This document shows, piece by piece, positions 17,928 to 62,300 of a DNA stretch of 64,000 nucleotides (positions within the stretch are counted from its first letter, which is position 1; every line of letters begins with the position of its first letter). Position numbers and translations under genes: made by a program. This stretch comes from Lentisphaerota bacterium. Lineage in GTDB: Bacteria; Verrucomicrobiota; Lentisphaeria; Victivallales; Victivallaceae. The notes under the pieces are model-generated. The model was not told where the DNA came from. It saw only the letters and a program-made list of their open reading frames with translations, and made no database searches. The stretch is taken from contig SUWG01000007.1 in NCBI GenBank assembly GCA_015061625.1, forward strand, positions 62,001 to 126,000, given 5' to 3'.

Positions 17928-19172
17928 TTATTTCCATGAAGCGATTTTGCGGCATACATCCTTTGCCGCGGCAATGATCTCTTTTTCTCCGGGAATAACT
18001 TTGTTGCGCATCAGAAATTTACCGTTGCAAATCACCGAATCGATCACTGTCGGGTCTGCGGCATACACCATGTCGGCGATCAAATCATAATTGCCGCTCA
18101 TCACCGGGGAATCCAGATCGACCAAAATCATATCGGCGGCTTTGCCGACTGCGATTTCTCCGGCATCAACTCCGGCAAATGACGCTCCCGCAGCAGTGGC
18201 GGCATGGAAAATATCTGCCGTTTTTCCGGCGGTGGGGAGTTCGGTTACACTTTTGGCAGTCAAGGCGGCAACTTTCATTTCATCGATCATCGACAGGTTA
18301 TTGTTGCTGGAAGTACCGTCAGTACCGATGGCGATTTTGCATCCGGCTTTTCTGGCCGCTTCAAAATCAAACATCCCACTGCATAATTTCATATTTGAAA
18401 CCGGATTGTGGGCGATATACGCACCTCTGGCGGCGATGATCTCCCGGTCATGACCGGTCAGATGGACACAATGGGCAAGCATGGCACGCTCATTGATCAG
18501 GCCGAGAGAATCAAGATACTCAACCGGAGTCATATTGTGTTCTTTAAGGCAATCTGCCACCTCTTTGGCAGTTTCAGAAACGTGGATATGCACTTTGCGC
18601 CCGTCAGATTCCATCATGCCGGAAATTTTTTGCAACGTTGCCCGGTCAACGGTATAGATCGCATGAGGAGTATGAGATACTTCGATGGTGTCTATATCCT
18701 GTGCCGCTTCGATCAATGCGGCATTGGCAGATTTGGCATCGTCGGAAACATTGCCGAGGTAAAGCAATCCCAAAGTGGCCCGCATTCCGGATTCCTTCAC
18801 CGCTTTAAGGGCGGCTTCCGGATGCCAGTAGGAGTCGTTGAAGTAAACCGTGCCGGAGCGGATCATTTCCACCGTGGCCAGACGGGTACCGATATAGATA
18901 TCTTCTGCAGTAAGTTTGGCTTCCACCGGCCAGATGTGATTGCTCAACCAGTCAAAAAGTTCCATATCCTCGGCATAGCCGCGTAAAAGTGTCATAGCCG
19001 CATGATTGTGGGCATTGTAAAACGGCGGTAAAACGGCCATTTTATCCAAACCGTCGAATATATCGGCATCCGGAGCGGAAATTTCCGGAGCGATGGCAGA
19101 AATTTTCCCATTCTCAAGCAGAATATCCGATGATTTCCGGTCAAGGATCACATTTTTCAGCAGAATTTTCAT
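17928..19172 (-). CDS. mtaD: 5-methylthioadenosine/S-adenosylhomocysteine deaminase-type amidohydrolase
   Basis: The 414-aa TIM-barrel amidohydrolase shows the metal-binding HxH in FYNAHNHAAM (H55, H57), the substrate-binding HVSE, the metal ligand region AHCVHL, HNPVSNMKLCSG, and the catalytic IGTDGTSSNN block typical of MtaD/SsnA/guanine deaminase relatives. In the MtaD family the reaction is deamination of SAH or MTA to S-inosylhomocysteine or methylthioinosine. Its start overlaps by 4 bp (ATGA) the end of the murE-SAHH-like fusion gene, so the two are translationally coupled, which supports a role in SAH handling. The exact nucleoside substrate is not proven by the sequence. Confidence 0.85.
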   Translation of the reverse strand: MKILLKNVILDRKSSDILLENGKISAIAPEISAPDADIFDGLDKMAVLPPFYNAHNHAAMTLLRGYAEDMELFDWLSNHIWPVEAKLTAEDIYIGTRLATVEMIRSGTVYFNDSYWHPEAALKAVKESGMRATLGLLYLGNVSDDAKSANAALIEAAQDIDTIEVSHTPHAIYTVDRATLQKISGMMESDGRKVHIHVSETAKEVADCLKEHNMTPVEYLDSLGLINERAMLAHCVHLTGHDREIIAARGAYIAHNPVSNMKLCSGMFDFEAARKAGCKIAIGTDGTSSNNNLSMIDEMKVAALTAKSVTELPTAGKTADIFHAATAAGASFAGVDAGEIAVGKAADMILVDLDSPVMSGNYDLIADMVYAADPTVIDSVICNGKFLMRNKVIPGEKEIIAAAKDVCRKIASWK

Positions 19173-21697
19173 AATATTTTCCCTTTTAAGATAAAATCGA
19201 TTTCTTTATCCATGGTGCCGGATTTCCGCATATCATTGATGATCATTTGTTCTACATCAGCGGGGGGCAGATTGATACCGGCGGGCAAAGTTTCTGCGGC
19301 CAATATCCGCAATGCTTCATTGCTTAATGCCATACTCGGATCGATATAGCGGATTTCAGTAGGCTCCTCAAGCATGAAGTTTAGCGGACGTTTCCGGTTC
19401 AATACCAGATCATCCGGCAGATCTTTGCCGAACTCATCTTCCACGCCCATATTGGCGATCAAAGGACGGTATTCAAGCAATAACGGCACATATTCCGCTA
19501 AAACGCCGGGAAGTCCGGTGGCGGAAACGACACACCGGCAGTTTTGCAAAAGTGCGGTAACGGCATCATGATTTGCGGCATCAACAAAGGCAACATTTTC
19601 CGGCGGGACAATCTGATTTTTATCCACGATCACCACTTTTGCTCCGGCGGCGGCGGCATAATATGCCGTCCCTTTACCGACTTTGCCGCCACCGAAAATT
19701 ACGATGGATTTATCTTGAAGATCGTTGAATCCGAGTTTTTTCATTGCCCGGACAAAACTTTCTCCGGTGCCGCAAGTCGTTTCAAAATGTTTCAGCACTC
19801 CGGAATCCACCGAGAAAACCGGCCGGGAACAATCCCGGTAATATTCCAGACCGGAGCGGGTCAATTCCGCATAACCGTACCGGCTTTTTACCTGAATGTG
19901 CCGTCCGGCGCAATCAGCGACAAGGTCAAATGTTTCCTGTAAAATTTTTTCGTCAGCCACCCGGATACCGAATGAATCAAGTAACTTTACGATATCCGGA
20001 TCACAGGGAATATCTCTGCCGACGGCGATGGTCAAATCGGCTCCGCCAGCCAGTAAAACCGCATATTTGAGCATCGTATTGCGGAAAACCGGGGTGGCAT
20101 CAAGCACTTTCAGGCCGGAAAACGGTTTGAGGGAATTGAATTTCTGAAATTGGGCATGAAGAGCCGGATATTCCGACGGGGAATAGAAATCTTTGAGATA
20201 TGCCAGCAACTTTGCCGCCCGGATTTGAGCGAACAAATCTTTTATTGTTTCCCGGTCGTCAAAATGGTGTTTTACTCCATTGATTTCCTGATAATTTTCG
20301 TGTCCTTTTCCGGCAACCAGAACCAGATCATTTTCTCCGGCGATATCCACCGCTTGGGCCAGAGCATCTTTGCGGGAAACGATAACTTCAAAATCAGTAT
20401 GTTGCGGAATTCCGGCAACGATATCGGCAATGATGTTTTCCGGGGCTTCATTCCGGGGGTTGTCGCTGGTTACGATCAACTTGTCTGCCCATCTGGCGGC
20501 CGCCGCCCCCATGCGCGGGCGTTTGCTCTTATCCCGGTTGCCGCCGCAACCGAAAACCGCAATCATTTTGCCGGAACAAAGCGGCTTGAGTGTACGCAGA
20601 ACATTTTCCAGTGCATCGTCTGTGTGGGCGAAATCCACGAATACTGTTGCTCCCTTGGGCGAAACCAGTTTTTCCAATCTGCCGGGGATATCCAAATGTT
20701 CATTCAAGGCTTGATTTATGGCATCCGGAGCGACTCCGTCGCAGAGAAGCAAGGTCAGAACTCCGGCTAAATTGCTGATATTATAAGTTCCCGGCAATTC
20801 AAAAGAGACTTGAAACGCTTGCAGGGCATTGCTCAATACAAAACGGCAGCCGGTCAAATCGCTGGATTCTTCCGATATCCGCCACCCGGCATTTTTACTT
20901 CTGCCGAAAGTAGGTATTTTCAAATCCGCCCTTTCAACGGCCAATTCTCCGGCCAGACGGCATCCCGCCGGATCATCGATATTGATCGCCGCAATACCGC
21001 CTTGGATAAGCAGATCGGTGAAGAGAGTTTTTTTTGCCTGATAATAATTTTCCATATCCAGATGAAAATCCAGATGATCTCCGGTCAGATTGGTGAAAAT
21101 TGCACCATTGATCGCAAAATCCCCCAATCGTTTCTGGGCGAGGGCATGGCTGGAAAACTCCATAGCGCAACACGTCGCTCCATTTTGCCGCATTTTTCTC
21201 AACAGCGGATAAAAGGTTTGCGGATCCGGAGTGGTATGAGTTGCCGGTATGGTATTTTGACCGTCATCAAATTCGACTGTGGAAAACATACCGCAGTTGA
21301 GTCCGGCAAATTCAAGTAAATGGCGCAGTAAATAAACCGAAGTGGTTTTGCCGTTGGTTCCGGTAACGGCATAAATTTTCAACTCCTGATCCGGTTGTCC
21401 GTTTTGGCGGCGGCAGAGCAGAGCGTATGCCTGGCGGATATCACGCACCTGACAGAAAAGAATATCCGGTGGATAAGTGACCAGATCGGAGGTGTGAATG
21501 ATTGCAGATACTCCGGCGGCAATGGCATCCGGAATGAATTTTTCCCCGTCGATCGCAGTACCTTTCACCGCCACAAATAGTGAACCGGGCTGAAGTTGCC
21601 GTGAATCACAGAAAACCGGAGCATCCGGGAAGTTCCCGTAATTGCCATGAGTGGAAATCAGAAGTTCTCCAAAAAGTTTTTCCGGAGTGATCTTCAT
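19169..21697 (-). CDS. murE: MurE (UDP-MurNAc-tripeptide synthetase) fused to an adenosylhomocysteinase-like domain
   Basis: The first ~490 residues of this 842-aa protein are MurE, the cytosolic ligase adding the third peptide residue to UDP-MurNAc-L-Ala-D-Glu. It has the ATP loop TGTNGKTTS (112-120), TNLTGDHLDFH and DNPR (412-415), the motif linked with meso-diaminopimelate. The last ~345 residues align along their length with S-adenosylhomocysteine hydrolase: a KPFSGLKVL start, the NAD loop GGGKVGKG near 669 and a C-terminal YIDPSMALSNEAL block. Against human SAHH, the counterparts of E156 and K186 seem kept while H55, D131, D190, H301 and H353 are replaced, so classical hydrolase activity is doubtful. 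ATG 21697 lies 1 bp after the murF stop with GGAGG upstream; a start 20 codons earlier would run far into murF. Confidence 0.88.
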   Translation of the reverse strand: MKITPEKLFGELLISTHGNYGNFPDAPVFCDSRQLQPGSLFVAVKGTAIDGEKFIPDAIAAGVSAIIHTSDLVTYPPDILFCQVRDIRQAYALLCRRQNGQPDQELKIYAVTGTNGKTTSVYLLRHLLEFAGLNCGMFSTVEFDDGQNTIPATHTTPDPQTFYPLLRKMRQNGATCCAMEFSSHALAQKRLGDFAINGAIFTNLTGDHLDFHLDMENYYQAKKTLFTDLLIQGGIAAINIDDPAGCRLAGELAVERADLKIPTFGRSKNAGWRISEESSDLTGCRFVLSNALQAFQVSFELPGTYNISNLAGVLTLLLCDGVAPDAINQALNEHLDIPGRLEKLVSPKGATVFVDFAHTDDALENVLRTLKPLCSGKMIAVFGCGGNRDKSKRPRMGAAAARWADKLIVTSDNPRNEAPENIIADIVAGIPQHTDFEVIVSRKDALAQAVDIAGENDLVLVAGKGHENYQEINGVKHHFDDRETIKDLFAQIRAAKLLAYLKDFYSPSEYPALHAQFQKFNSLKPFSGLKVLDATPVFRNTMLKYAVLLAGGADLTIAVGRDIPCDPDIVKLLDSFGIRVADEKILQETFDLVADCAGRHIQVKSRYGYAELTRSGLEYYRDCSRPVFSVDSGVLKHFETTCGTGESFVRAMKKLGFNDLQDKSIVIFGGGKVGKGTAYYAAAAGAKVVIVDKNQIVPPENVAFVDAANHDAVTALLQNCRCVVSATGLPGVLAEYVPLLLEYRPLIANMGVEDEFGKDLPDDLVLNRKRPLNFMLEEPTEIRYIDPSMALSNEALRILAAETLPAGINLPPADVEQMIINDMRKSGTMDKEIDFILKGKIL

Positions 21698-21698
21698 C

Positions 21699-23066
21699 TT
21701 ATCTGGCCTCCGGCGGCAGGGCTTTTTCCACGGCATTTCCCCGTGACCCTTTGGCAAATACGGTATCTGACGGCCGGACGATGGAGTTCAGGAAAATTCC
21801 GGCATCATCCGGAGAGTTGAAGTGATCGGTTGACATACCGGCAAATTCATTGCCGATGGTGATAACTGCGGCATCCGGCAGTTTTTTCCGGATCAATGCC
21901 AGCAAATCGGCGTGTTCCCGGCTGGATGAATCGCCCAATTCTCTCATGCCGCCGAGCAGTAAGATCAGGCGGCCGGGCAGGGCGGCATTGGCAAGCAGAT
22001 CTATTGAAGCGCGCATACTTGCCGGATTGGCGTTGTAGGCATCGTTGTAATAAGTGACCTGATTGACGATACTTTTTTTCATCCGCATACCGGGGAGCAT
22101 GGTTTGCGGCAGACCTTTGGCAATAACGGATGCCGGAATACCGGCAGAATAGGCAAGCGCGGCTGCTCCGGCGGCATTCAGGGCATTGTGCGGACCGGTC
22201 AGTTGCCAAAAGATCAAAAATTTTCCGCCGTCGGGGAAGGTCAATTCAAAAGAACTTCCCGCCAGATCGCCGGAAATGAATCTGGCCGATACGTCGCCCC
22301 TGCCATCCAGACCGAATGTACATATCTTATGTTTTTTTGCTGCTTGCTGCAAGATATTATACCCCGCACATTCTGCCGGAAAAACCGCGGTGCCGAGGCT
22401 GTTCATCGCCAGAAAAATATCTCCTTTTTCTGCGGCAACGCCGTCAAGATCGATGAGTTTTTCCAGATGACACGGAGCAATAGAGTTGACAATGGCACCG
22501 TCGGGCATCATCATTTTGCTCAATGGGGCTATTTCTCCCGGGGAACTGGTTCCGGCTTCGATCACAGCAAAACGGTGACCGGAATTCAACCGGAGCAGAT
22601 TCTGGGCAACGCCGATTTGATTGTTGGTATTGCCGATGGTGCAAAGAGTCTGTTCGGCTCCGGCGGCCTGGGAACAAATGGCATATAGCATCTCTTTGAC
22701 ACTGGTTTTGCCGACACTGCCGGTTACGCCGAAAAGGGTGAGCTCTGTGAATTTTTTACGGTGTCCGGCGGCGCAGTTTTGCATTGCTTTGAGCGTATCA
22801 TCGACCAGCAGCACGGGGATATCTGCCGGGATACCGACACACTTGTTACGCTCAATACATAACGCTTCACAGCCGGAGTTTACCGCTTGGGTCAAAAAGT
22901 TGTGAGCATCAAATTTTTCGCCGCTCAAAGCAAAGAATATTTTGCCGTGATTGTCGCATCTGGTATCCGTTGAAATGGCAAGGGTATTTTCCGGAAATAC
23001 GGAATCAAACCATGTGCCGCCGGTAAAAGCGGACAATTCGGCGGCTGAAAAAAGTGCCTGACTCAC
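21699..23066 (-). CDS. murF: UDP-N-acetylmuramoyl-tripeptide--D-alanyl-D-alanine ligase
   Basis: The 455-aa cytosolic ligase adds D-Ala-D-Ala to the UDP-MurNAc tripeptide. It shows the N-terminal domain with DTRCDNHGKIFFALSGEKFDAHNF, the ATP loop GVTGSVGKTSVKEML, GNTNNQIGVAQNLL, EAGTSSPGEI and the C-terminal NDAYNANPASMRASIDLL block. Length is standard. It lies between a lipoprotein gene (4-bp overlap) and murE (1-bp gap), so these form one operon. The usual neighbours mraY, murD and ftsW are not here, and murF precedes murE, the reverse of the common dcw order. Confidence 0.95.
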   Translation of the reverse strand: MSQALFSAAELSAFTGGTWFDSVFPENTLAISTDTRCDNHGKIFFALSGEKFDAHNFLTQAVNSGCEALCIERNKCVGIPADIPVLLVDDTLKAMQNCAAGHRKKFTELTLFGVTGSVGKTSVKEMLYAICSQAAGAEQTLCTIGNTNNQIGVAQNLLRLNSGHRFAVIEAGTSSPGEIAPLSKMMMPDGAIVNSIAPCHLEKLIDLDGVAAEKGDIFLAMNSLGTAVFPAECAGYNILQQAAKKHKICTFGLDGRGDVSARFISGDLAGSSFELTFPDGGKFLIFWQLTGPHNALNAAGAAALAYSAGIPASVIAKGLPQTMLPGMRMKKSIVNQVTYYNDAYNANPASMRASIDLLANAALPGRLILLLGGMRELGDSSSREHADLLALIRKKLPDAAVITIGNEFAGMSTDHFNSPDDAGIFLNSIVRPSDTVFAKGSRGNAVEKALPPEAR

Positions 23067-23650
23067 TGATGCTGTCCTGCGTTGATGATTGTTCTGACCC
23101 GGTCGGCGCGGAATACCAGACGGATGATGTCATTTTTTGTGCGCCAGTATATCCATGTGCCGTTGCGCCGATCCGGAGTACGGCAGGCCGGGGGCGGGCC
23201 GTAAGCCAGGAGTACTGCTTTTTCATTCATGCCGGGAACGACTTCTCCCCGGAGGATACGGGTTTGCATGGCTTCCGGCAGACCGGCAAGCAGTTCTTCC
23301 CGTGTTTGAGTGGTGAATGTGTATGAGATAAATTCCCGCATCGTGCAAAGACGGTGTGCGGAAGAATATTTGATGCAGAATTCTTCCCCGGTGGAAACCA
23401 CTTTGAAGCGGATCTCATCGCTCCAGCGGCCGGTGGATAAAGGTTCGATTTCAGTGCCGAGCGGGATGAATGATCCCTGCTGGATATTGAGAGCATCCAT
23501 ATTCAATGGATCGGTGTACCACAAATTGTAACCGGTATAGATTTTCTGATCCTTGCCCTGCTGGAATACTTCGGAAAAAAGCACCGGATCGGCGCATCCG
23601 GCGAAGAGCAGGCCGATGATAAAAGCCGTTAAAAATCTGAAATGACGCAT
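23063..23650 (-). CDS. Putative lipoprotein of unknown function
   Basis: The 195-aa product carries a lipoprotein signal peptide ending in the lipobox LLFAGC, with C18 or so as the acylated residue. The mature domain has no family I recognise; it is mixed alpha/beta with a GYNLWYTDPLNM segment, a REFISYTFTTQTREELLAGLPEAMQTRI helix and a C-terminal GMNEKAVLLAYGPPPACRTPD stretch that resembles the repeated 'G-M-T-x-x-x-V-x-x-x-x-G-x-P' motif of small outer-membrane assembly lipoproteins (BamE/SmpA-type). That resemblance is suggestive only. It overlaps murF by 4 bp and heads the murF-murE-mtaD operon. Confidence 0.6.
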   Translation of the reverse strand: MRHFRFLTAFIIGLLFAGCADPVLFSEVFQQGKDQKIYTGYNLWYTDPLNMDALNIQQGSFIPLGTEIEPLSTGRWSDEIRFKVVSTGEEFCIKYSSAHRLCTMREFISYTFTTQTREELLAGLPEAMQTRILRGEVVPGMNEKAVLLAYGPPPACRTPDRRNGTWIYWRTKNDIIRLVFRADRVRTIINAGQHQ

Positions 23651-24134: not shown

Positions 24135-24163
24135 TTGAATATTTGACGAATGTGGATTATCTT
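24135..24163 (+). promoter_or_regulatory. Predicted purD promoter
   Basis: TTGAAT (24135-24140), 17 bp, TATCTT (24158-24163), about 58 bp before the purD ATG. It is divergent from the Lrp-like gene promoter. Confidence 0.6.
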
Positions 24164-24220
24164 TTAAGATTGCACAAAAATATGTACAAAACCAAATGTA
24201 TAAAGTATGGAGTATTGGAA

Positions 24221-25879
24221 ATGAAAAAAGTTTTGGTCGTCGGTTCCGGCGGACGTGAACACGCTCTGGTATGGCAGCTTAAACGCAGTCCTCAAGTCAA
24301 AAAAGTTTTTTGCGCTCCGGGTAATGCCGGTATCGCCGCTGATGCAGAATGTGTGAATATCAAAGTCAACCAGCTGGATAAACTGGCTGATTTTGCGGAA
24401 AAAGAGAAGATCGATCTGACTGTGGTCGGGCCGGAAGCACCGCTTTGTGACGGTATCGTCGATGTATTCAAGGCCAGAGGATTGAAAGTTTTCGGCCCGG
24501 ATAAAATCGCCGCCCAGTTGGAAGGCAGTAAGGACTTCGCCAAAAAATTCATGGTGAAATACGGGATCCCCACGGCGGCATCTGAAACATTTGAAGCTCC
24601 GGAAGCCGCCTGTGAGTATATTGATGACCAGTTTGACAAAGGGGCCAAAGGTATTGTGGTCAAGGCCGACGGTCTTGCCGCCGGTAAGGGAGTGCTGGTC
24701 GCCGAAAACCGTGACGGGGCAAAAGATTTTGTCAAGGAGTGTTTTGACGGCGCATTCGGTGCCGCCGGAACCAAAGTGGTCATTGAGGAGATGCTTCTCG
24801 GTGAGGAGGCCAGTGTGCTGGCTTTGACTGACGGGAAAACGATCGTTCAGATGGTTTCTTCGCAGGATCATAAACGGATTTTTGATAATGACCGCGGGCC
24901 GAATACCGGCGGCATGGGGGCTTACTCTCCGGCTCCGGTGGTGACGAAAAAGGTGGAGCAGCTTATCGAAACGACGATCCTCAAACCTTTCCTCAAAGGT
25001 ATCAATGAAGAAAAACTCAACTTCCGCGGGGTGATTTTCTGCGGGATCATGATTTACGAAGGTGTGCCGAAAGTTCTGGAATTCAATGTCCGTTTCGGAG
25101 ATCCGGAAATCCAGCCGGTAATGCGCCGTTTCGAGGGTGACTGGTACGATGTGCTGGAAAAGACGGTAGACGGCAAATTGGATGAAGCCAAATTGTCATG
25201 GAGCAAAGATGCCGCTGTTTCAGTGGTTATTGCCTCCGGCGGTTATCCCGGAGAATATGAAAAAGGTAAAGAGATCACCGGTTTGGATCGGGCCGGGGAA
25301 TGCGGCGCAGTGGTTTTCCATTGCGGTACGGCTAAAAAAGGCGACAAGATCGTTACCGATGGCGGCCGGGTGCTGGGAGTCAGTGCGGTCGGTTCCAGTA
25401 TTTACAATGCCAAAGGCGGAGCGTATCATGCGGTGCGCCAGATCGAATTTGAAAATATGTTTTACCGCAATGACATCAGTAACAAGGCGTTGCTTCGCCA
25501 CTATATGCCGATGAAAACGGAAAAGGCGTGGATGTGTTTGCTGGTCATGGCATTGTTGTGTGCGGCATGGATCCAGCCGTTTTTCAATCAGGCGTGTTCT
25601 GTAAAGTGGATGATCGGCAAGATTTTTGTGGCGGCATTTATGCTGATCCGTTGTGCGTTGCTGATCCGGCAGAAGAGATTCAGCGTGCGTATTTGTGTCG
25701 GCAGTTTTGTGATCATTGCGATCATGGCGATGATGGTCTCAATGTTTGTCAAAAAAGAGAGCGAGCAGAAAGCGGCGGCGGCACAGGCTGCTGTTGAAGC
25801 TCCGGCAGAAACCCCGGCAGAAACCCCGGCAGAAACTCCGGCAGAAACCCCGGCTCCTGCCGCAGATGGACAACAGTAA
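24221..25879 (+). CDS. purD: Phosphoribosylamine-glycine ligase PurD with C-terminal membrane and PAET-repeat extension
   Basis: Residues 1-424 are a complete PurD (GARS), an ATP-grasp enzyme of purine synthesis: VGSGGREHALVW at the N-terminus, GPEAPLCDGIVD, VVKADGLAAGKGV, DNDRGPNTGGMGAYSP, EFNVRFGDPEIQPVM and the C-terminal VRQIEFENMFYRNDI block. The reading frame then runs on for another ~128 residues containing three hydrophobic helices (about 436-452, 463-481, 489-508), a basic stretch and a low-complexity tail of four AETP units. Typical PurD stops near 425. Start ATG 24221 has GGAG 8 bp upstream; an in-frame TTG at 24143 overlaps the promoter and is rejected. The fusion would tether the enzyme to the membrane, unless the junction is an artefact. 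Confidence 0.88.
   Translation: MKKVLVVGSGGREHALVWQLKRSPQVKKVFCAPGNAGIAADAECVNIKVNQLDKLADFAEKEKIDLTVVGPEAPLCDGIVDVFKARGLKVFGPDKIAAQLEGSKDFAKKFMVKYGIPTAASETFEAPEAACEYIDDQFDKGAKGIVVKADGLAAGKGVLVAENRDGAKDFVKECFDGAFGAAGTKVVIEEMLLGEEASVLALTDGKTIVQMVSSQDHKRIFDNDRGPNTGGMGAYSPAPVVTKKVEQLIETTILKPFLKGINEEKLNFRGVIFCGIMIYEGVPKVLEFNVRFGDPEIQPVMRRFEGDWYDVLEKTVDGKLDEAKLSWSKDAAVSVVIASGGYPGEYEKGKEITGLDRAGECGAVVFHCGTAKKGDKIVTDGGRVLGVSAVGSSIYNAKGGAYHAVRQIEFENMFYRNDISNKALLRHYMPMKTEKAWMCLLVMALLCAAWIQPFFNQACSVKWMIGKIFVAAFMLIRCALLIRQKRFSVRICVGSFVIIAIMAMMVSMFVKKESEQKAAAAQAAVEAPAETPAETPAETPAETPAPAADGQQ
25802..25849 (+). repeat. Four 12-bp tandem repeats coding AETP units
   Basis: The unit CCGGCAGAAACC occurs four times in register (third copy has ACT), coding the Pro-Ala-Glu-Thr tail of the PurD extension. 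The near-identity suggests recent slippage expansion. Confidence 0.9.
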
Positions 25880-46100: not shown

Positions 46101-47135
46101 GAAAATACGCCTGCCGCACCTCAAGTAAGTAACCGTTCCGCAGAGGAATTGACCGGTTCCGGTATCGTGGCAGAAAGGGATGGAAAAAACGAATTGGCGA
46201 TCTGGCACTACCGTCAGGCGATTGCCGCCAAGCCGGATTTTGTGCTTGCCCATTACCGTTTGGGGATGCTTCTTTTCCGTCGCGGCAGTTATCAGGAAGC
46301 TGCCAATCATCTGGATAGTGCCAGAAGTGCGGATCCGGAAAACTTGCAGTTGGCATTGGATACTGCCCGGTGCTTCATTCAGATCTCCCGGTTCGGCAAT
46401 GCCAAATCGATCGTTGACCCGTTGCTGGTCAAATATCCGGAAAATGCTTATGTGCAGATGTGTGCCGGATTGATCGAAGCCGGTTGCGGGGCTCCCGCCC
46501 GGGCCGAGGAAAGATTGCTTACCGCGGCCCGGCTTGCGCCGGAATCATCGGAAATCCAGATCGAATTGGCCCGGTTGCTGGCCAATTCGGTTTCAGACCG
46601 TCTGGGCGAAGCGGTCATCGCTTATGAGCGGGCCAGAGAGTTGGGAGCCGCACCTCATCCGGAATTGGAGCGTTTGCTGGGTGCAAGACTGGATCACCGC
46701 CGGGAACTGGTGCGTTTTATGAGCGGTGCCGCCAGAGAAGCGGAAATCAATAATGACTGGCTTTCGGCGGCATGGTATTATCGCAAGATAATGGAAGAAA
46801 ACAATCCGGCATTTGCCCCGTTGCTGGCTTTTGCCCATTGGAAATCCGGCAATGCTTCGGCGGCTAAAGAGGCGTTGGAATTCAATGTTCCCAGCCGTAA
46901 TGGCATGGTCGTGCTTGCATTGATCGCTCTGGCGGAAAATGATAATGAAACTGCAATGCGTGCCGCACAGCAAAGTGTCGGAGCAACCATCCCTGCCGAA
47001 TGGATCGGAATAAATCTGGAATTGGAAAGATTGAGAAATCTGACCAATCCATCTGCCGCAGTACGGCTTTTGCTGCAGGGAATCCGGCGGCCGGGAAGTG
47101 CCGATTCTCCGGCGGGGGCGGCTCAACAGAATTGA
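43146..47135 (+). CDS. Giant exported coiled-coil protein with C-terminal TPR domain
   Basis: The 1329-aa protein begins with a signal peptide (MNSVKILAVAVIGLLVSLTALAAP) and a short TPR-like unit (FEQGVSLRERGNYTEALNYFTRARENY). Next is a Pro/Gln/Arg-rich linker with repeated QRPAA/QRPVQRP motifs (about 110-150). A very long left-handed coiled coil covers about residues 155-980, including a run of identical heptads DRQI(T/A)E(K/R). The last ~330 residues have TPR motifs (NELAIWHYRQAIAAKPDFVLAHYRLGMLLFRRGSYQEA). It is probably periplasmic, bridging or scaffolding the envelope. No enzymatic motif is present. It overlaps hflX and its 3' end overlaps the convergent gene by 13 bp. Confidence 0.8.
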   Translation: MNSVKILAVAVIGLLVSLTALAAPSPWDSWRSGYTNFEQGVSLRERGNYTEALNYFTRARENYLAVRAARPDWNQRVIADRLRDCDRQIAELRRLLGEAGGSESSAGGQRPVQRPAAGQPAQRPTQRPVQRPAANQPAQRPAADSGSDALSRAERAELERLRAEVAQLRASNQQLERTVQRQRDFEAEMAALLRDRKAVEDRYALLEQRYRALEAELQRPQDRIADLEQRLVDERMSVERLTNQVASLEQQLRIERENARLGQVAKNALEEMLRKREEDLRRITQELEAANERLRAMAAVSENNADLNRQIAALNRQIADLRRQVAEKGEEVAARDRQITEKDRQIAEKDRQIAERDRQITEKDRQIAEKDRQITAKDEEISELNRRNNESAAASADVSARASDSERTVADLRRQAAAWERQVADLQNRLRIANENNSRKDQQISDLQNRISDLQNQLRIANEQNTARGQQITDLQNQLRAAEEQRSAFEQRIAELQQERERAGTALREAQNQNSGLQARIRTLQQNLEQAGNSARISAAEVASLRERNRTLEEDVQRLHERTEDLERRLAIRNSEDYRAATEARTSVRRLEADLQAAQSELVRLREEIDAGKAALAESERRLKAANEETLRARAEVVAASERERALQEQLRNFQQLRTQYDELNRNFQALAAENRQNRSLLEAARPQQAELERARIRLLEIDQLRNALAREQQLNAELQAAYNRDQAELQALRRRAQEFENARRRLAELEAIAREAERLQGLESELTALRSREVELASLKVQFNELQTAHRALQSAHTALTAEQQRLRAEIERLRRDSEELVNLRRVNRELEAMIAANTAELERLNRLLADSQAQAQADLHASCRIEAQRLRVAAEAVGPLNDQIQQLQNELQQLRRTLTEQRNRERELNRELELKVAEIEQLRRLSAELADLRQKSADELLGRVDASRLSRLEDEIAALNKLNAELAAERDRLTAILNNREQDENTPAAPQVSNRSAEELTGSGIVAERDGKNELAIWHYRQAIAAKPDFVLAHYRLGMLLFRRGSYQEAANHLDSARSADPENLQLALDTARCFIQISRFGNAKSIVDPLLVKYPENAYVQMCAGLIEAGCGAPARAEERLLTAARLAPESSEIQIELARLLANSVSDRLGEAVIAYERARELGAAPHPELERLLGARLDHRRELVRFMSGAAREAEINNDWLSAAWYYRKIMEENNPAFAPLLAFAHWKSGNASAAKEALEFNVPSRNGMVVLALIALAENDNETAMRAAQQSVGATIPAEWIGINLELERLRNLTNPSAAVRLLLQGIRRPGSADSPAGAAQQN
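44151..44276 (+). repeat. Six 21-bp tandem repeats in the coiled-coil gene
   Basis: Unit GATCGTCAAATCNCTGAAAAN, six copies in register, each coding one heptad of the coiled coil. It is a coding array, not a CRISPR. Confidence 0.9.
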
Positions 47136-48628
47136 ATATTGCCGTCGAGCATCGTCAGAATAATACCGTCTGCCGGGCGGAAAGGTTCTGAAAAACTGGC
47201 TTTGGAGTCGATATCATCGGGAGAAAACACGGTGATATCGGCTTTTTTATTTTCCGCAATGATACCGATTGCCGGAAGATTGAAAAATTCTGCCGGTTTG
47301 CCGGTCGCTGCGGCGACACATTGGCCGACTGATTGACCGCAATCAAGTTTCAAGCGCATAAATCTGGCGATGGCTCCGGCACTGCGGGGATGGTTCGAGA
47401 CAGCGGAATGGGCCGGATGATCGACGGCGTATCCGTCACTGCCGGGCATACAGAGGTCACTGGTAATGATTTTCAGCATATTATCTTCCGACATACCGGC
47501 ACTTCCGATCGTTGCAGTGGTGGCATCAAAAGATAATTGATCGATCACGGCATCGATCATATTTCCCGGCAGATCGGGATATTTCTGACCGGTAAATTTT
47601 TTCCATTCCGGGTGAGTTGTACCGGTCAAACGCCAGCGGTTCCAATCGGAAATATCTTTTTGCTGCAAACTCTGCCTGATATCCTGCCGGATTTTGTCAT
47701 CCTGTAATGCCAGAGTGATATCCCGGTCAGGCATCGTGTCGAATGGCGGTGGCAGAATGACGCTGAGCATGGTTTGGCTTTCGGTATACGGATAACGGTC
47801 AAAACGGAAATCCATGCCGGTATTACGGTAATGGTCGATCAGTTTCAGTGCGGCATCCAATTTATGCCAGTTGGTTTTACCGGCGGTTTTAAGGTGACTG
47901 ATCACCACTTTTTTCAAACCGGCCTGTTGAGCGCAATCAAATGTTTCCTGCAAACTTTCCAATAAATTATTACCTTCACTGCGTAAATGAGTGGTGAAAA
48001 TTTTATTGTGCAATGCCAGTTCACGCATCAATTCGATGATCTCATTCCGGTCGGCGAAGCATCCGGGAGTGTAGAGCAATCCGGCAGACATTCCCAAAGC
48101 CCCCTGATCCAGACAGTTGCTTAAAAGTTGACGCATGGCCTTGATCTGTTTTCCGGATAAATTTTTTTCTTCATATCCGGCAATAGCGGCACGCAGAGTA
48201 TTGTGACCGCAGAGTTGAAATGTTTTCAGGGCAACATTCCGCCCGGCGAGCATTTTGCGGTAACCGGTCAGATCCTGCCAGTTGATCGGAATTCCGTAAT
48301 TGGCATAGAGAGTGTCGAGGTGATCGTGATTTTTCTCACTTACCGGAAAGGGAGATAATCCGCAGTTGCCGGTGATTTCACACGTTACTCCCTGTCTGCG
48401 CTTGCTTGCCGCTTGAGGGTTGGCTGCCAGCGAGAGGTCGCTGTGACCGTGAACATCGATAAACCCCGGAGCGATGATCTCATTTTTGAATGAATACTCT
48501 TTATCTGCGGCGCAACTGCCGTAAATATCTTTTTCTACGGCAATGATCCGTTCATTTTCTGTGAGTACGCATTTGCGTACCGGTTCATTGATACCGTCTG
48601 CGACAAAGCCTTTGAGTAAAATTCTCAT
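47123..48628 (-). CDS. N-acyl-D-amino-acid deacylase (D-aminoacylase) family amidohydrolase
   Basis: The product (501 aa from ATG 48628) has a TIM-barrel amidohydrolase core with GFIDVHGHSDLSL (metal HxH), GVTCEITGNCGLSPFPV, GMSAGLLYTPGCFA, TTHLRSEGNN, VISHLKTAGKTNWHKL and the block GSDGYAVDHPAHSAVSNHPRSAGA, typical of the D-aminoacylase family. It would hydrolyse N-acyl-D-amino acids or cyclic amides, perhaps from peptidoglycan or diet. A longer reading frame to 48769 lies inside the debranching-enzyme gene. Its start overlaps that gene's stop by 4 bp (ATGA), so they are coupled. The 3' end overlaps the convergent coiled-coil gene. The metabolic link with polysaccharide breakdown is unclear. 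Confidence 0.85.
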   Translation of the reverse strand: MRILLKGFVADGINEPVRKCVLTENERIIAVEKDIYGSCAADKEYSFKNEIIAPGFIDVHGHSDLSLAANPQAASKRRQGVTCEITGNCGLSPFPVSEKNHDHLDTLYANYGIPINWQDLTGYRKMLAGRNVALKTFQLCGHNTLRAAIAGYEEKNLSGKQIKAMRQLLSNCLDQGALGMSAGLLYTPGCFADRNEIIELMRELALHNKIFTTHLRSEGNNLLESLQETFDCAQQAGLKKVVISHLKTAGKTNWHKLDAALKLIDHYRNTGMDFRFDRYPYTESQTMLSVILPPPFDTMPDRDITLALQDDKIRQDIRQSLQQKDISDWNRWRLTGTTHPEWKKFTGQKYPDLPGNMIDAVIDQLSFDATTATIGSAGMSEDNMLKIITSDLCMPGSDGYAVDHPAHSAVSNHPRSAGAIARFMRLKLDCGQSVGQCVAAATGKPAEFFNLPAIGIIAENKKADITVFSPDDIDSKASFSEPFRPADGIILTMLDGNIQFC

Positions 48629-51600
48629 ATTCCGGCCTGTGAGAGTATTTTGAATACCCGGTAAAACTCTGAAATGCTCCATGCCTGCGCCAGACATCCG
48701 CCGTTGAGGTGCGGTGCATGGCCGTCGAGAACTTCCGGCATTTCGCCGATCACGCCGTTCTCCATCCATTGAATTGCGGACATAAGCAACGCCAATGCCC
48801 GTTTGTTGCTGTGTGAGTCGCCAACTGCAGCGAGGGCTTCACAGTAAGCCGGGAATGGCCACCCCCACGCCGTGCCGTTATGGTATGCGACTTTTCTGGA
48901 AGTATCTTCCGGCCCCCGGTAATAACCTTGATACGGGTAATTGGGGGTATTGAGCAACCGGCCATCACGGCTGACCGGCAGAGGATAGGAGACTTCAGAA
49001 TCATCCAGAGTACGGATCGCTCCGGGAATCAGCAGTTTTGACGTATGATTGAGTATCCGGCGTTGTTTTTCCGGATCGCTTACCGCACCGAGGGTGATGG
49101 CTGTAAGGATATTGCACCGCAGGTGATCATCCGCAATGGCTTGAGATGCCGGAGTGCCGGAAGCGCAATGCAGACAATCAGCGGGAACTGTGCCGGTGAA
49201 GAAATATTTTTCGATGCTTTGTCTGACCTTGGCGGCAAGTTGTCTTTCGCCGAGAAATTCCAAAGCGGCATACCAGAGCGATTGGATTTCGATGGGATAT
49301 CCTTCCCGCGGAGTTCCTGCCGGATAATTGGTATCCATCCAGGTAAAGTGTGAGGGGCTGAATATCAGGCCGCTCTCCTGATCCATAATGATCCGGTTGG
49401 GCGTGCCGATCTGGTAATGATGGATGATCGACAGCAGTATCTCTTTGATGGTTCTGCCGTTGCATTTTTCAGTGAGAAATTTTTTGTTGCCGGTTTCGGC
49501 TATGTAATCTCTTACTGCGATGATCAGATAAAGCGGCGCATCGGTCGTATCCCGGTTGGAATCATTGCCGCCGCAAATCATGTTGGGAATGGTTCCGGAT
49601 TTTTCAAATGCGGCAAAACGGCGGATTATCTGGGCGGCTTTTTCCTGAAATTCCGGAAATTTCACCAGTCCGCGCAAGACGATCAGAGTGTCACGGCCCC
49701 AGTCGAGGAACCACGGATATCCGGCGATTACGGTATTCAGTCCATCCCTTTTGACGATGAACCGGTTGAGTGAATCGATAGCCAGTGCTTCCGGGGGCAG
49801 GGCCGCCGGGAAATCGTAATCCGGAAAATCGGCAGTGGCAGTCAAATCCTTTCCGACACCGGCGGATAAAGTAACTGAACCGCCGAGGGCGAGGGGGATT
49901 TCGAAGTAACCGGGACTGAAAAGGTCGGTTTTATCATTCATCCCGTAGTAACGCTCCTGCGGCAGATCGACCATGTAGTTCCACTCCGGAGAAATATGGA
50001 ATTTTCCGGCGGATATCCGCATTTGCAGTTTTCTGCCGGCGGGTTGGAAGTCAAAACCGTTTTCTTTTGCGGTCACCGAAGCGGGGAAGTGTTTTTCAGC
50101 TCCGTCACACGCTCTGGTGGTGGTATGGTTGACCCGGTCTTCCAGATCGGGACGCAGAATAAGTTTGGCTTCCGGGGATATGCCATCGGTGCGCATTTTG
50201 CGTTGAAACTCCAATTCAATGGCATTGCGGTCAAAAGCCATGCGGAATTTGACACTTAAAGTGCATCTGCCGCCATGTCCATCGGGAACAAGGAACTCCC
50301 ACTTTGCCCGGTTGCCGGGATGGGCACTGTAATTTTCCAGACTTTTGACGGTCAACTCCTGGGAGTATTCATCGACGACCAGCCACGCCCGGCACCGGGT
50401 GAACATGATATGACGGTCTACCGGATATTCCGGATTGTCATTGACCGCCAGAATGGCATCATATTTACTGTTTAACTTGCCCCACTGCGCACTGAACATC
50501 GCATAGGAACTGCTGACATTGGAACCGAAAACATAATGGTTTCCGGCATCCTGCCAGCGGCCGGAAAGGTGAACCAGACGTTTTTCCGGATCGGCCAGCA
50601 GCAGAATGTTGCCGGAAATTTTCCGTACGCCATCCGGCTCAAAAGCGGTCATATTCAAGGTGATATTTTCCGGAGAAGTGCGTTTCCGGCGGGAATTTAT
50701 TTTCAACAGGGCAAAATGTTCTCCGGAATTCTGCTGTAAACTTTCCACCCGGCAAAGAGTGGTATTGCTGTTGGTCAATTCGGCGATGAAAGGTACCGGA
50801 CTGTGGATCAGCAGAATATCCTGCGGGGCTGCCATTACGATACGGCAGGCATCCTGGGGATAGTGCCAGCGGCAGACCGGGGCAGGGGAAATGCCGGAAA
50901 CGGATTCGACAAATTTTTCCGGATCGGCGCACAATGATTTACCATCGGCACGGGCGGCATTGGCGAGCGTGGTATAGTTCAATGCGGCACTCTGGGCCAT
51001 ACGGGCGGCTTTCAGAGCATTTTTCAACTCCGGCACTTTGGGCATGGTTTCCGGGATGCTGAAATCGTCAAAAGCGATGCAAAGTGCTTCGGCGGGGGCA
51101 AGTTGGATTTTCTTTACTCCGTTGTCACCGGTAAAGTTACAGAATTTTCCGCTTAAAAGATCCCGGCCGCCGTCGAACTCCACCTGACTGAAGTGGATGA
51201 ATGAAGCATTTTCACAATCCAAATTAAGCAGAATAAGCAAGGGGGTGTGGCCCGGAGATTTTCTCAATGCGGCGATCACATTGCCCGGTCCCTGCTGGAT
51301 AAGGGAGATTTCCGCATCTGTGCCGAATGCCGGATGAGTGGCTAACAGAATATTTATTTTGCCGGTCAGGGCACAAAGATTATCCACTGCACCGAAATTC
51401 AATGCACCGCATTGGTGGACATCGATCTTTTCAGTGGCATAAAATTCTGCGCCGTTGGCAAATCCGAATGTACCATTGACCGCGAGCAGGGCGTTGACCA
51501 TAAGGCGCAGTTTGGCGTATGCTTTACCATTGGCCGCCAGCCGGAGATTGTCATGTGTTTCGGAAAAGTTGACCAGAGTGCCGCCCCGCCGGGCAGACGC

Positions 51601-52782
51601 GGTCATATACGGATAGTAGCCATTGATCGCATCTCTGGTGTAGTTCTGGAAAAGTTCAGAATATCCCCAATCCAGACCGCATTGTTCCAGCAGTTTTTCC
51701 TGAACCGGTACCGGGCCGCCCAGACCTTCCAGCAGAAAGGTGGTATCCGGAAATTCATTGCGTACTTTGGCAATGATATATTCCCATGCATCCTGCGGAA
51801 CCATGTAACCGGCATCACAGCGGAAACCATCCACTCCGCGTTTGCACCAGAAAAGGAAAACTTTGGCCATCAGGTCGTGAACTTTGCTCTGGCGGTAGTC
51901 AAGCTGACACAGATCGGCCCAGACGATACCCCATGCTCCGGGACTGACGAAGTGTTTGTTTTCATTGCGGATGAAGTAATCGGGGTGTTCGCTTTGCAGT
52001 TTTGAGGCCCATCCGGTATGATTGACCGGCAGATCCATGAAGATCCTGCCGCCTCTGGCGTGGACGGCATCGATCAATTCGGTAAATTGCTCCATCGGAG
52101 TTGCTGAAGTGTCAAATTCTGCCAGAGCCGGATCGACGGCAAAATAGTCGGTGGCCGCAAACGGGCTGCCGTAACGCCCCATCCTTCCGTAAGCCATCGG
52201 GGTAGGGTGAATGGGGAGCAACTGCAGAATCCGGCAGTTGAGCGTATCGAAAATATGATCCAGTTTCCGTATCACACTGCGGAAAGTGCCTGATGGCGGC
52301 ACGATGGTGAAGCCTTCCTGATCGAGCGTTTCAAAGTCCGGTTGTTCCGGGGAGTGCGGCAGATACATCCATTTGCCCCATTGCCGTACAAAGCAACAGT
52401 ATATTCCGTTGCCGGAAACGTTGGCATTGGAAGATACTTTCAAATGGAAGTTGTTGCCGCTTGACCATATTGCCGGAGATTTATCTGCGGGCAGAAAGCA
52501 GCATTTCGCTTCAAACACGCCGACTTCAGTCAGGGGCAGGGTCAATTTGAATGAACCGTCACTTTGCCGGTGCATTTCCAGATCGTGCCAATCACTGCCT
52601 TTCGGAGTGCGGTTGGCTTCGGTTTTTTCGATTTGTTCAGCGATTTTTGCCGCTCCGCCGCCGATATTGGTGCGCAATACCGCCCGGCCTTTTTTATCTG
52701 CCGGAATGCCGTAAAAAGAGAAAGTTGCTGTTTCGCCGGTGAAAAAGAGAGATTTTTCCGGTATCAGAGATTGGGTGGTCAT
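48625..52782 (-). CDS. Amylo-alpha-1,6-glucosidase/alpha-amylase fusion (GH13 + GH133 glycogen-debranching type)
   Basis: The 1385-aa protein has no signal peptide. After an N-terminal beta domain (residues 1-130), a GH13 TIM-barrel runs about 160-520 with VDGFRCDAGYM (nucleophile D323), TTFLLEGLGG (acid/base E352) and ETHDN (D411). A beta domain follows, then a C-terminal (alpha/alpha) barrel (about 1030-1380) of the GDE_C type with LDWGRDTLIVLRGL and NMICGGNDSNRDTTDAPL. This layout combines transferase and alpha-1,6-glucosidase activities for glycogen or alpha-glucan debranching in the cytosol. It is coupled (4-bp overlaps) to the esterase upstream and the deacylase downstream. Confidence 0.9.
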   Translation of the reverse strand: MTTQSLIPEKSLFFTGETATFSFYGIPADKKGRAVLRTNIGGGAAKIAEQIEKTEANRTPKGSDWHDLEMHRQSDGSFKLTLPLTEVGVFEAKCCFLPADKSPAIWSSGNNFHLKVSSNANVSGNGIYCCFVRQWGKWMYLPHSPEQPDFETLDQEGFTIVPPSGTFRSVIRKLDHIFDTLNCRILQLLPIHPTPMAYGRMGRYGSPFAATDYFAVDPALAEFDTSATPMEQFTELIDAVHARGGRIFMDLPVNHTGWASKLQSEHPDYFIRNENKHFVSPGAWGIVWADLCQLDYRQSKVHDLMAKVFLFWCKRGVDGFRCDAGYMVPQDAWEYIIAKVRNEFPDTTFLLEGLGGPVPVQEKLLEQCGLDWGYSELFQNYTRDAINGYYPYMTASARRGGTLVNFSETHDNLRLAANGKAYAKLRLMVNALLAVNGTFGFANGAEFYATEKIDVHQCGALNFGAVDNLCALTGKINILLATHPAFGTDAEISLIQQGPGNVIAALRKSPGHTPLLILLNLDCENASFIHFSQVEFDGGRDLLSGKFCNFTGDNGVKKIQLAPAEALCIAFDDFSIPETMPKVPELKNALKAARMAQSAALNYTTLANAARADGKSLCADPEKFVESVSGISPAPVCRWHYPQDACRIVMAAPQDILLIHSPVPFIAELTNSNTTLCRVESLQQNSGEHFALLKINSRRKRTSPENITLNMTAFEPDGVRKISGNILLLADPEKRLVHLSGRWQDAGNHYVFGSNVSSSYAMFSAQWGKLNSKYDAILAVNDNPEYPVDRHIMFTRCRAWLVVDEYSQELTVKSLENYSAHPGNRAKWEFLVPDGHGGRCTLSVKFRMAFDRNAIELEFQRKMRTDGISPEAKLILRPDLEDRVNHTTTRACDGAEKHFPASVTAKENGFDFQPAGRKLQMRISAGKFHISPEWNYMVDLPQERYYGMNDKTDLFSPGYFEIPLALGGSVTLSAGVGKDLTATADFPDYDFPAALPPEALAIDSLNRFIVKRDGLNTVIAGYPWFLDWGRDTLIVLRGLVKFPEFQEKAAQIIRRFAAFEKSGTIPNMICGGNDSNRDTTDAPLYLIIAVRDYIAETGNKKFLTEKCNGRTIKEILLSIIHHYQIGTPNRIIMDQESGLIFSPSHFTWMDTNYPAGTPREGYPIEIQSLWYAALEFLGERQLAAKVRQSIEKYFFTGTVPADCLHCASGTPASQAIADDHLRCNILTAITLGAVSDPEKQRRILNHTSKLLIPGAIRTLDDSEVSYPLPVSRDGRLLNTPNYPYQGYYRGPEDTSRKVAYHNGTAWGWPFPAYCEALAAVGDSHSNKRALALLMSAIQWMENGVIGEMPEVLDGHAPHLNGGCLAQAWSISEFYRVFKILSQAGI

Positions 52783-59326: not shown

Positions 59327-62300
59327 TTAAAGCCGTTCAAATTTGTAGAGCCGGGTTTCGTATTTTCTCACATTCACGGTGAATTGAGTACCGTTGTTTT
59401 GAGTCGGTATTTCCTCACCGGTGATCAGGTCGGTCACTTTGGCCCGGAATGGCAGGTAAATGGTCTTTGCTCCGGCATTGTCCGCATGGATGAAACACGT
59501 TGCGCCATTGGTGCCGACAGCATCGTTGCTCTTTATCCAGATGTGGATCCCCGCCGCCGTGAAAAGTTCCCGGTAGAGATCGGCGGTCAATTCCGTGGAA
59601 GCCAGATATACCCGGCGGTGATCCGGATAATTTCTGACCACATAAGGTTGATTGCCCATGCCGACCGGGCGGAAAGGCATTTTGCCGGAAACCGATTCAA
59701 AGGTGAATCCGGTGACGCTTTGCATATTTTCCATGGAAAGCTGCCGGTTGTGGATGATACCTGCGCCCGGAGTGAAGATCACTGTCGCGCCATTTTTGCA
59801 AAGTTTGTTTTCGATCGCCTGCCGTATTTCATCAGTCAGATAGAAGCCGTTGACGATAACGAAACATTTGTACTGGCTGACCGGGAAATTATCCATCAGG
59901 ATATCTTCGAGCAAATAGGCATCGGTCTGCGCTCCGGAGCGGCCGGTATTCACCCGCAACAGGAAACTGCTGGCGTGGGTGATCTCGTGATTGTTTTCCA
60001 CCAGATAGGGGAGCGAATCAATGGAATAGAGCAATGCGACCTGCGGTTTGACCGGTTGGGCGGGGTTGAAATTGCCCTGGAAACAGCGGTTCAGGAATGC
60101 TCCGGCTTCGATCAAACCCTGATTACGGTAGGAGTTGCCGGTCAGGTCACAGGTGTAGATCGGGGTGCTGGTGACCAGACCGATCGCTGAATCCCGGAGC
60201 AGAACAGATACGCTCTGATAGAGGTTGTCAACGTGCCGGTGACTGGGGGTGGCATTGAGGAAGGTGCGGGTGTCATTTTCCTGAAAATAGGTCGCGCCGT
60301 GAAGTTTCAAACTGCTGATCGCCGCCATATTGCCGCCGGGCAGACCCAGTTTACGCAAATGGTAGTCGATCGGCCCGCTGAAGAAGTCGGCGGCTCCGGA
60401 AAGGTAGATCTTACGGAATGCCAGATGTCCGATAGTCTGCACCGGGAAACCGGCGTAAAAGAGCAGATATCCGCCGTAAATACCGACGATTTTGTTTCCG
60501 GCTTCGGCTTGGGCGGCCTGCAGAAATTCGATAGCGGCAGTTGCCACGGCATCGCTTTGACATTCGATATAATCGATGACTCTGGCTTCAGTTTCCGGAT
60601 TGCGGAACCAGGTATCGCTGGGCAGACGGCGTTCTGCGCCGCGCGGCACATTGATATTGGAAACATCCAGTGAATCACCGTATTTCTGACGGAGAAACTC
60701 CCGGAAGTAATCCCGCATTGCCACGCTGAAGTCGGCGTGCAGTTGCGGATTGGCCCACACGCCGGGATATTGCCATTCGCCGCCGTCGCAGAGTGATGAG
60801 AGGCGGTAACCGATCACGTTGGCCCGCAAAGGAGTGCTTTCGATATGACGGATAAAGGCCCGGATAAAGGCTTTGCCGTCTTCTCTCCATTGACGGGAAG
60901 CGGGACTGGCCAGATATTCATGATTCGTTTTGCCATCCAGATAGATGCTCTGGTCGGGATAGCGGCTGTGCCACCAGTAAGGTGCATCGATGCCGAATCC
61001 GAGAACTATTTTGATTTCGGGGAATGCCGCAGTAATCTGATTGATCCGGCGGGTGATAAAGGTGAAGTCATAACCATCTTCATTCCAGCCGGGAGTGGTC
61101 AATCCTTTGCCGACATTGGTGCCGACTCCGAACATGAAAATACGGTATCCGGCATCGTAATGTTCTCTGATGCGGTCGGGTATCTTGCTGAAAAAGATCA
61201 TATCATCGAATGCTTCACCATTGATGAAGATCACCGGACCATTGACGGTCTGGCGCACTTCGGAAGTCGGGTTGGGGCGCATATCGGGATTTTGTGAAAC
61301 TGTGAACGTCAATTCTTCTGCCGTAAGCGTATGGGTATCATCTCCGGAAAATTGGAGGATATAGGTGTCGCAGAGCAGTTTACCGGCAAAAATATCTTTG
61401 GAAATATGGATTTTGTCACCGTTATTCAAAGTGGTGTCAAAGTTGACATCTTCTTCGGCGATGACGATATTTCCGGCAACTGCCCGGAGGGTGATCCGGC
61501 TTTGCGGGGCGAGCAATCTGACTGCAGTAATGTCACACTCCAGATGGACACCGCCTTTGATGGGCGTGAGGGTCACATTTTCAGCGGAGAATTGGTTGCG
61601 CAGAGTAAAATTTTCGTAAGGCATCAGACACCAGCTGCCCCACGGCAGGATGGTGTAAGGGCCGATAACTTTGGGTGCGAAACTTTCACTTTGGGAGTAG
61701 AGGCGGGTTTTCCAGTCATCGGCCGGATCGCGGAGGGTGCGGAAAGTGCCGTCGGTATCGATTTTTATGACCGTACCGGAAGCGGTGACCAACTGGAAAT
61801 TGGCGAGCAGACCGCTGGCTTCACCGTTGTTTTCCAGATGGATGGCGATCAGGTTGCTGCCTTTCCGGAAGAATGAGGTGACATCTGCCACTCTGGGATT
61901 CTGCCAGGTCATTTCCTGCAGAGTAACTTTGCGGCCGTTGATGTAGAGGTCGAAACGGTCATCGGCAGTACCCTGAAAACGGCAATCCACGGGGATATCA
62001 TCGAGGATCACTTCCCGCTGGAAATATTGATGGCCTTTATTTCTGAAATTCACCTCATCGGCGATCCATGAAGCGGTCCAGTCATCGCCCTTTTCTTCGG
62101 GGATCTGGAGCAGTAAAAGGTCATTTAACTGTGTTTCAGACGAAAAAAAAAGGCAGGCCCCGTTTCCGGGGAGGGTGAATGTATATTTGTTCTCTCCGGG
62201 GGTGACAGTTACCGGGAGCGTGGCGACGGTCTGCCCCATGGCATTTTCGATGCGCAATTCCCCTTTGCCGGGGGAATTGCTGGAAAAGGTCATTTCATAA

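Follow-up and report, generated by a model that had tools for sequence, protein, structure and literature searches.

The window analysed here is a stretch of 64,000 nucleotides from a Lentisphaerota bacterium (order Victivallales, Victivallaceae; assembly GCA_015061625.1, contig SUWG01000007.1, positions 62,001 to 126,000 of the forward strand), in which a single open reading frame joins the Mur ligase MurE to a domain resembling S-adenosylhomocysteine hydrolase (SAHH). The SAHH-like second part of this frame is hereafter named SAHL. The gene fusion is striking, but it mostly reflects operon order and the real news is the partner protein SAHL. Positions within the window are as follows, where MTA stands for methylthioadenosine, SAH for S-adenosylhomocysteine and aa for amino acids.

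19169..21697, minus strand, MurE-SAHL fused open reading frame, 842 aa
20207..21697, minus strand, MurE part, UDP-MurNAc-tripeptide synthetase, residues 1-497, with TGTNGKTTS and DNPR (NF001126, PF08245/PF02875)
20189..20248, minus strand, junction, residues 484-503, from the MurE C-terminal end into the SAHL N-terminal end
19169..20206, minus strand, SAHL part, SAHH-fold domain, residues 498-842 (345 aa) plus stop
17928..19172, minus strand, MTA/SAH/5'-deoxyadenosine-type deaminase (TRZ/ATZ amidohydrolase; PF01979, E 1.9e-59)
21699..23066, minus strand, MurF, directly upstream of murE (TIGR01143, 333.3 bits, cut-off 288.6)

The genes murF, murE-SAHL and deaminase abut in this order, the deaminase start overlapping the SAHL stop by 4 bases. 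The MurE part scores above its curated cut-offs (TIGR01085, 463.2 against 257.3 bits; NF001126, 485.8 against 373) and its translation contains an intact P-loop and DNPR. A sequence-only reading of this DNA had described MurE fused to a degenerate SAHH-like domain; one open frame of 842 aa does carry both parts, and a structure model of the C-terminal part, as that reading anticipated, predicts the full two-domain SAHH fold including the NAD-binding Rossmann domain.

Scanning 84,980 species genomes for SAHL homologues confirmed 144 loci, of which the best 80 were kept. The window and 78 of these loci form an alignment of 79 members, L071 and L072 being left out for a stop or an ambiguous letter in the frame picked. 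SAHL positions were mapped onto SAHH by sequence and profile alignment, and SAHH residues are given in brackets in what we take to be human numbering. Invariant in all 79 members are P39 (H55), N43 (Q59), D98 (D130), E114 (E155), L115 (E156), D134 (N181), K139 (K186), E142 (D190), T143 (N191), N252, E258 and N276; C99 (D131) is found in 78, V255 (H301) in 77 and F41 in 74, with Y in the other five. The pairings N276/N346 and D289/H353 are less certain than the rest. The SAHH catalytic set H55, D131, E156, K186, D190 and H301 corresponds to Pro, Cys, Leu, Lys, Glu and Val in SAHL, Lys alone being unchanged, and the NAD loop is retained. The sequence-only reading was thus right about the survival of the NAD loop and of the K186 counterpart and about the replacement of H55, D131 and H301, but its surviving E156 was off by one column, E114 matching E155 and L115 matching E156. 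D190 and H353, which it also listed as replaced, do differ (Glu for D190) without being simple losses, with the reservation on the D289/H353 pairing made above. Since the 79 homologues show little or no variation at the substituted positions, SAHL is a family of its own and not a degenerate SAHH. The sequence-only reading also took the domain to be probably non-hydrolysing, and ordinary SAH hydrolysis by SAHL is indeed unlikely.

Besides the replacement of H55, D131, E156 and H301, SAHL differs from AhcY/SAHH in length (some 345 residues, where four canonical SAHHs of the order have 463-467) and falls far under the curated cut-offs (TIGR00936, ahcY, 36.8 against 497.6 bits; NF004005, 51.3 against 275). 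The K...YRY C-terminal end is absent from the sequence; structural alignments nonetheless run through to the terminus of several SAHH chains, and the model's closing block of ten residues has a pLDDT of 63. In a phylogenetic tree the SAHL rows form one group separate from the four canonical SAHHs (SH-aLRT 100). They comprise 29 Lentisphaerota, 24 Fibrobacterota, 17 Bacteroidota, 2 Pseudomonadota and 2 Verrucomicrobiota, together with one row labelled Actinomycetota, three without label and the window itself. No named family for SAHL was found: for the 79 members, NCBIfam and Pfam offered at best low-scoring SAHH or general NAD-binding models, and the open-licence papers searched gave no description of it. 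Judged by its sequences, SAHL is an undescribed, divergent family of the SAHH superfamily that is spread over several phyla and has invariant residues of its own.

In the order, SAHL was counted in 60 of 137 genomes (E < 1e-80), with exclusion of the 27 further genomes of a raw 87 in which weak matches mostly corresponded to regions or frames fitting ordinary SAHH or other Rossmann proteins. The deaminase was counted in 72, six of a raw 78 being dropped as having weak matches only. All 60 SAHL genomes contain the deaminase (Fisher p 4e-27, ancestry ignored). The closest PDB relative of the window deaminase is 4f0r, an MTA/SAH deaminase (E 1.7e-71), and residues H55, H57, H197, E200, H234 and D285, which we take to be the metal-binding positions, are invariant in 21 rows; the protein scores below the NCBIfam cut-offs (PRK06038, 365.1 against 609; 5'-deoxyadenosine deaminase model, 272.3 against 522). 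In the 80 SAHL loci, tblastn places murE directly upstream in 16 and does not find it there in 64, some loci ending early upstream at contig ends, while the deaminase is detected at most 300 bases downstream in 28 and anywhere in the locus in 31, some loci again being shortened. The lasting partner of SAHL is the deaminase, not murE.

When 40 related genomes were searched, strong SAHL matches (E < 1e-70) came from 14 beside the window's own: 13 congeners plus a single genome from a different family. All 13 congeners have SAHL as an open frame of its own, about 350 aa long, behind a separate murE; the ends overlap in most, and in 11 the deaminase gene lies downstream within the stretch read. 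In the single genome from the different family a gene other than murE precedes SAHL and deaminase. A MurE-sized frame that holds SAHL occurs only in the window (872 aa; next longest 485, among 60 strong matches in the 137 genomes of the order), and the combined architecture, sought in relatives, was found in the window's genome and in none of the 13 congeners. The sequence-only reading had suggested that SAHL may sense SAH, adenosine or NAD state and tune peptidoglycan synthesis, which would make it a regulatory pseudo-enzyme acting on MurE. The fusion itself and the 16 loci with murE directly upstream favour such a role, but as SAHL is a separate gene in the congeners and in most loci no murE was found directly upstream of it (64 of 80, some shortened), a cell-wall sensor is unlikely. 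The new residue set kept in 79 sequences and a presence that tracks the deaminase count against it as well, and we hold this role to be highly improbable. As to gene content between and beside the partners, a 752-aa frame, lipoprotein-like by eye, lies between SAHL and deaminase in one congener locus (L022, 2380-4638), and a frame resembling a small cytidine/guanine deaminase by eye stands beside SAHL and deaminase in a Bacteroidales locus (L044, 3031-3546).

The fusion is known from one draft genome in 44 contigs and might therefore stem from a single wrong base, in assembly or sequencing, between two normal adjacent genes, as which SAHL and murE occur in all 13 congeners. The junction contains no in-frame stop, no ATG is present in any frame of its minus strand, and past the MurE-like DLF both other frames are stop-free for more than 115 bases. 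Scanning for a frameshift or join, as the sequence-only reading had advised, shows that seven of 290 single-base changes yield two frames, which would be in keeping with such an error. Six of these, however, leave a MurE tail of 1-3 residues past the motif, unlike that of the congeners, where murE stops 5-14 residues past the DRE (or DAV) motif in 13 of 13, and only one gives a relative-like tail; moreover, all seven require a TTG start for SAHL. The spacing between DRE/DAV and the SAHL 'FY' region is 43 to 120 nt in the congeners and 60 in the window, and IKDLF after DRE in the window frame still resembles the congeners' MurE tails by eye. The fusion is probably real, an error being unlikely, and would be expressed as one protein, though an internal TTG could serve as start of a separate SAHL. 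Most likely it is a by-product of the gene order murF-murE-SAHL-deaminase in this genus. MurB-MurC of Verrucomicrobium spinosum, from the PVC superphylum, is likewise a Mur ligase fused to another enzyme, but unlike in MurE-SAHL both of its parts belong to cell-wall synthesis (PMC4803751).

What SAHL may do is indicated by the genes that replace it. PF01048, the nucleoside phosphorylase and nucleosidase superfamily, is present in 68 of the 137 genomes, 3 of the 60 with SAHL as against 65 of the 77 others. The three exceptions have an AMP-nucleosidase-like protein (G126), a nucleosidase-like protein (G049) and a 30-bit fragment (G057). The 61 high-quality genomes divide into 26 with SAHL alone, 34 with PF01048 alone, one with both and none with neither; the 12 genomes of the order that lack both are none of them high-quality. 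A 6-oxopurine nucleoside phosphorylase (PNP) scores above cut-off in 11 of the 12 genomes that have the deaminase without SAHL and in none of the 60 SAHL genomes (Fisher p 4e-12), and the PF01048 proteins inspected from three of the former (G011, G014, G100) are such PNPs; the twelfth (G058) carries a PF01048 protein of no assigned type. PNP is above cut-off also in G030, G037 and G040, which are without SAHL and have distant deaminase matches only. Of the two deaminase-less genomes read, G086 has an MTA phosphorylase and G111 a nucleosidase-like protein. The gene mtnA, for the next enzyme after phosphorolysis, is found in none of the 60 SAHL genomes, in 9 of the 12 with deaminase and no SAHL (in G013 as fragments) and in 45 of the 65 others, and adjoins PNP in G011, G014, G100, G115, G120 and, as fragments, G013. 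Five of the 137 genomes, all without SAHL, have an MTA/SAH nucleosidase above cut-off. By this distribution of PF01048, PNP and mtnA, genomes of the order hold, past the deaminase, either SAHL or a PF01048 enzyme, nearly always PNP and often together with mtnA. Two other contexts were rejected: a replacement of ordinary SAHH by SAHL, PF05221 being present in 128 of 137 genomes and 57 of the 60 with SAHL; and, for the order, the futalosine (menaquinone) pathway, TIGR03700 matching weakly in 134 of 137 genomes and above cut-off in G097 only, a genome without SAHL.

We propose, at a probability of about 50%, that SAHL follows the deaminase in the pathway, substituting for PNP, and removes 5'-deoxyinosine or methylthioinosine by means of bound NAD, hence in small-molecule salvage and not in cell-wall control. 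The substrate and chemistry that we infer are these. The neighbouring deaminase would convert 5'-deoxyadenosine from radical-SAM enzymes, methylthioadenosine or both into 5'-deoxyinosine or methylthioinosine, which SAHL would dispose of, standing in for the 6-oxopurine PNP of close relatives. Bound NAD+ would oxidise the 3'-OH with K139 as base; with the C5'-elimination residues gone, the 3'-keto nucleoside would lose hypoxanthine from C1', and reduction of the sugar would complete the cycle, resulting in net hydrolysis. In SAHH, K186 helps 3'-OH oxidation whereas H55, D131 and H301 serve 5' thiol removal, so that a protein which keeps the former without the latter would suit a substrate lacking a 5' leaving group. 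The sequence-only reading had offered a new enzyme acting on a nucleoside-linked substrate as its second option, and this fits.

Parts of the scheme have precedents. SAHase oxidises 2'-deoxyadenosine to the 3'-keto form, upon which the N-glycosidic bond breaks and the enzyme is stalled with NADH (PMC6063907), and E. coli must clear 5'-deoxyadenosine and MTA (PMC10986504). For P. aeruginosa, cleavage is described as following deamination, an order also proposed for M. jannaschii; the MTA deaminase and methylthioinosine phosphorylase of P. aeruginosa likewise deaminate first and then split the 6-oxopurine nucleoside, the second step there being a phosphorylase where here an SAHH fold would take its place (PMC6302742). 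The invariant Asn43 stands at the SAHH base-reading position and could plausibly read hypoxanthine; archaeal inosine-preferring enzymes, which read hypoxanthine with HxExK where SAHL has PxFxN (P39 and N43 in 79 of 79), have Lys at this position (PMC10978960). More tentatively, and at clearly less than even odds, SAHL may represent a new enzyme class, an NAD-dependent nucleosidase in which the base-losing side reaction of SAHH on 2'-deoxyadenosine has become the main one, splitting 5'-deoxyinosine and methylthioinosine, and which has displaced PNP and mtnA in Victivallales and occurs also in Fibrobacterota, Bacteroidota, Sutterellaceae and Akkermansia glycaniphila.

Were SAHL instead to hydrolyse S-inosylhomocysteine (SIH) formed by SAH deamination, the 5' thiol and not the base would leave. 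The archaeal SIH hydrolase with DadD (the M. jannaschii route) likewise pairs an SAHH homologue with a 5'-deoxyadenosine/MTA/SAH-type deaminase, a gene pair alike in outline (PMC10978960), and 7r3a, called S-inosyl-L-homocysteine hydrolase, is among the SAHL profile and fold matches. The H55, D131 and H301 positions are, however, Pro, Cys and Val in 79, 78 and 77 of 79 members, and in the relative AgmF each of the mutations H56A, D129A and H299A abolishes activity, as do K184A and D188A (PMC8599513). AgmF, the NAD-dependent dehydratase of angustmycin biosynthesis, is also related to SAHH, catalyses an altered reaction and recycles its own NAD, but retains the SAHH catalytic residues, which SAHL does not (PMC8599513): among the counterparts of H56, D129, K184, D188 and H299, with columns mapped through SAHH and not AgmF itself, only the Lys remains. 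In addition, ordinary SAHH is present in 57 of 60 SAHL genomes, and the genes exchanged with SAHL are PNP and mtnA, not SAHH. Hydrolysis of SIH is accordingly a quite unlikely function. It is no more probable that SAHL simply oxidises the deaminated nucleoside as an NAD-dependent 3'-dehydrogenase, or acts on it as an epimerase-like enzyme, without enzyme-driven base release. The retained NAD loop and K186 counterpart and the lost elimination residues would suit such an enzyme, but complementarity with PNP suggests base release, a released ketone needs a separate NADH sink, and no redox partner gene was seen beside SAHL among the partly annotated neighbours.

Several observations weigh against the proposed NAD-dependent removal of the deaminated nucleoside. 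With mtnA absent from SAHL genomes the released sugar is without assigned fate, and Leu, Cys and Val at the SAHH-important E156, D131 and H301 could mean a non-catalytic or differently acting protein. Ancestry was considered on a tree of 73 canonical SAHH sequences from 73 of the 137 genomes as a species-tree stand-in, the genomes being hand-chosen as high-quality with a full-length SAHH gene, with others adding contrast. On it SAHL requires a minimum of 10 changes and PF01048 of 12. Only four well-supported independent pairs differ in SAHL; on average PF01048 changes the opposite way in 3.8 of these 4, and in no case the same way (median p 0.125), and p 0.05 would take six pairs. In these pairs mtnA is opposite in 3.2 and the deaminase in the same direction in 2.8 of 4. 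The pattern of SAHL and PF01048 is consistent, yet short of significance in this strict test.

A wider sample of 26 SAHL genomes was hand-chosen from the 80 loci; two of them, G137 and G143, share deaminase places with genomes of the order. Of the 26, 22 gave a match to the deaminase query, G150 a weak one. The query had no match in four, three Rikenella-type genomes and one of Fibrobacteraceae; there the deaminase profile retrieved only a distant amidohydrolase in the three Rikenella-type genomes, aminofutalosine-deaminase-like in the one scanned, and nothing in that of Fibrobacteraceae. A PF01048 protein scores above 100 bits in 13 of the 26 genomes, all but one of these Bacteroidota, so that PNP and SAHL are able to occur together; of the other genomes, 7 lack any match and 6 score below 50 bits. 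Leaving weak matches aside, the exclusion holds in the sampled Lentisphaerota, Fibrobacterota, Sutterellaceae and Akkermansia glycaniphila, and fails for most Bacteroidota. If the proposed salvage role is correct, SAHL would fill a missing step in the clearance of by-products of radical-SAM enzymes and polyamine synthesis by many gut and rumen anaerobes, add a redox route to nucleoside cleavage and call for caution in annotating SAHL proteins as adenosylhomocysteinase.

Elsewhere in the window, murF is preceded by a gene for a 195-aa protein, lipoprotein-like by eye (23063-23650, minus strand) and without Pfam or NCBIfam match. Similar frames cluster in 13 scanned loci, and directly before murF in L025, where this was looked at; the clustering was built on longest open frames and misses some genes in GC-rich loci. 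A 1317-aa frame (59327-63280, minus strand) is without Pfam match at 1e-5. A 548-aa frame (47123-48769, minus strand) has its best amidohydrolase-model match in the last 100 residues and overlaps an upstream glycogen-debranching-enzyme-like frame (48625-52782, minus strand) by 145 bases, so its start or frame may be wrong. The window may contain a second in-frame fusion, as the PurD frame (GARS; 24143-25879, plus strand) does not end with PurD but carries some 125 further residues, among them several hydrophobic stretches of membrane-like character and a low-complexity tail, ETPAETPA.

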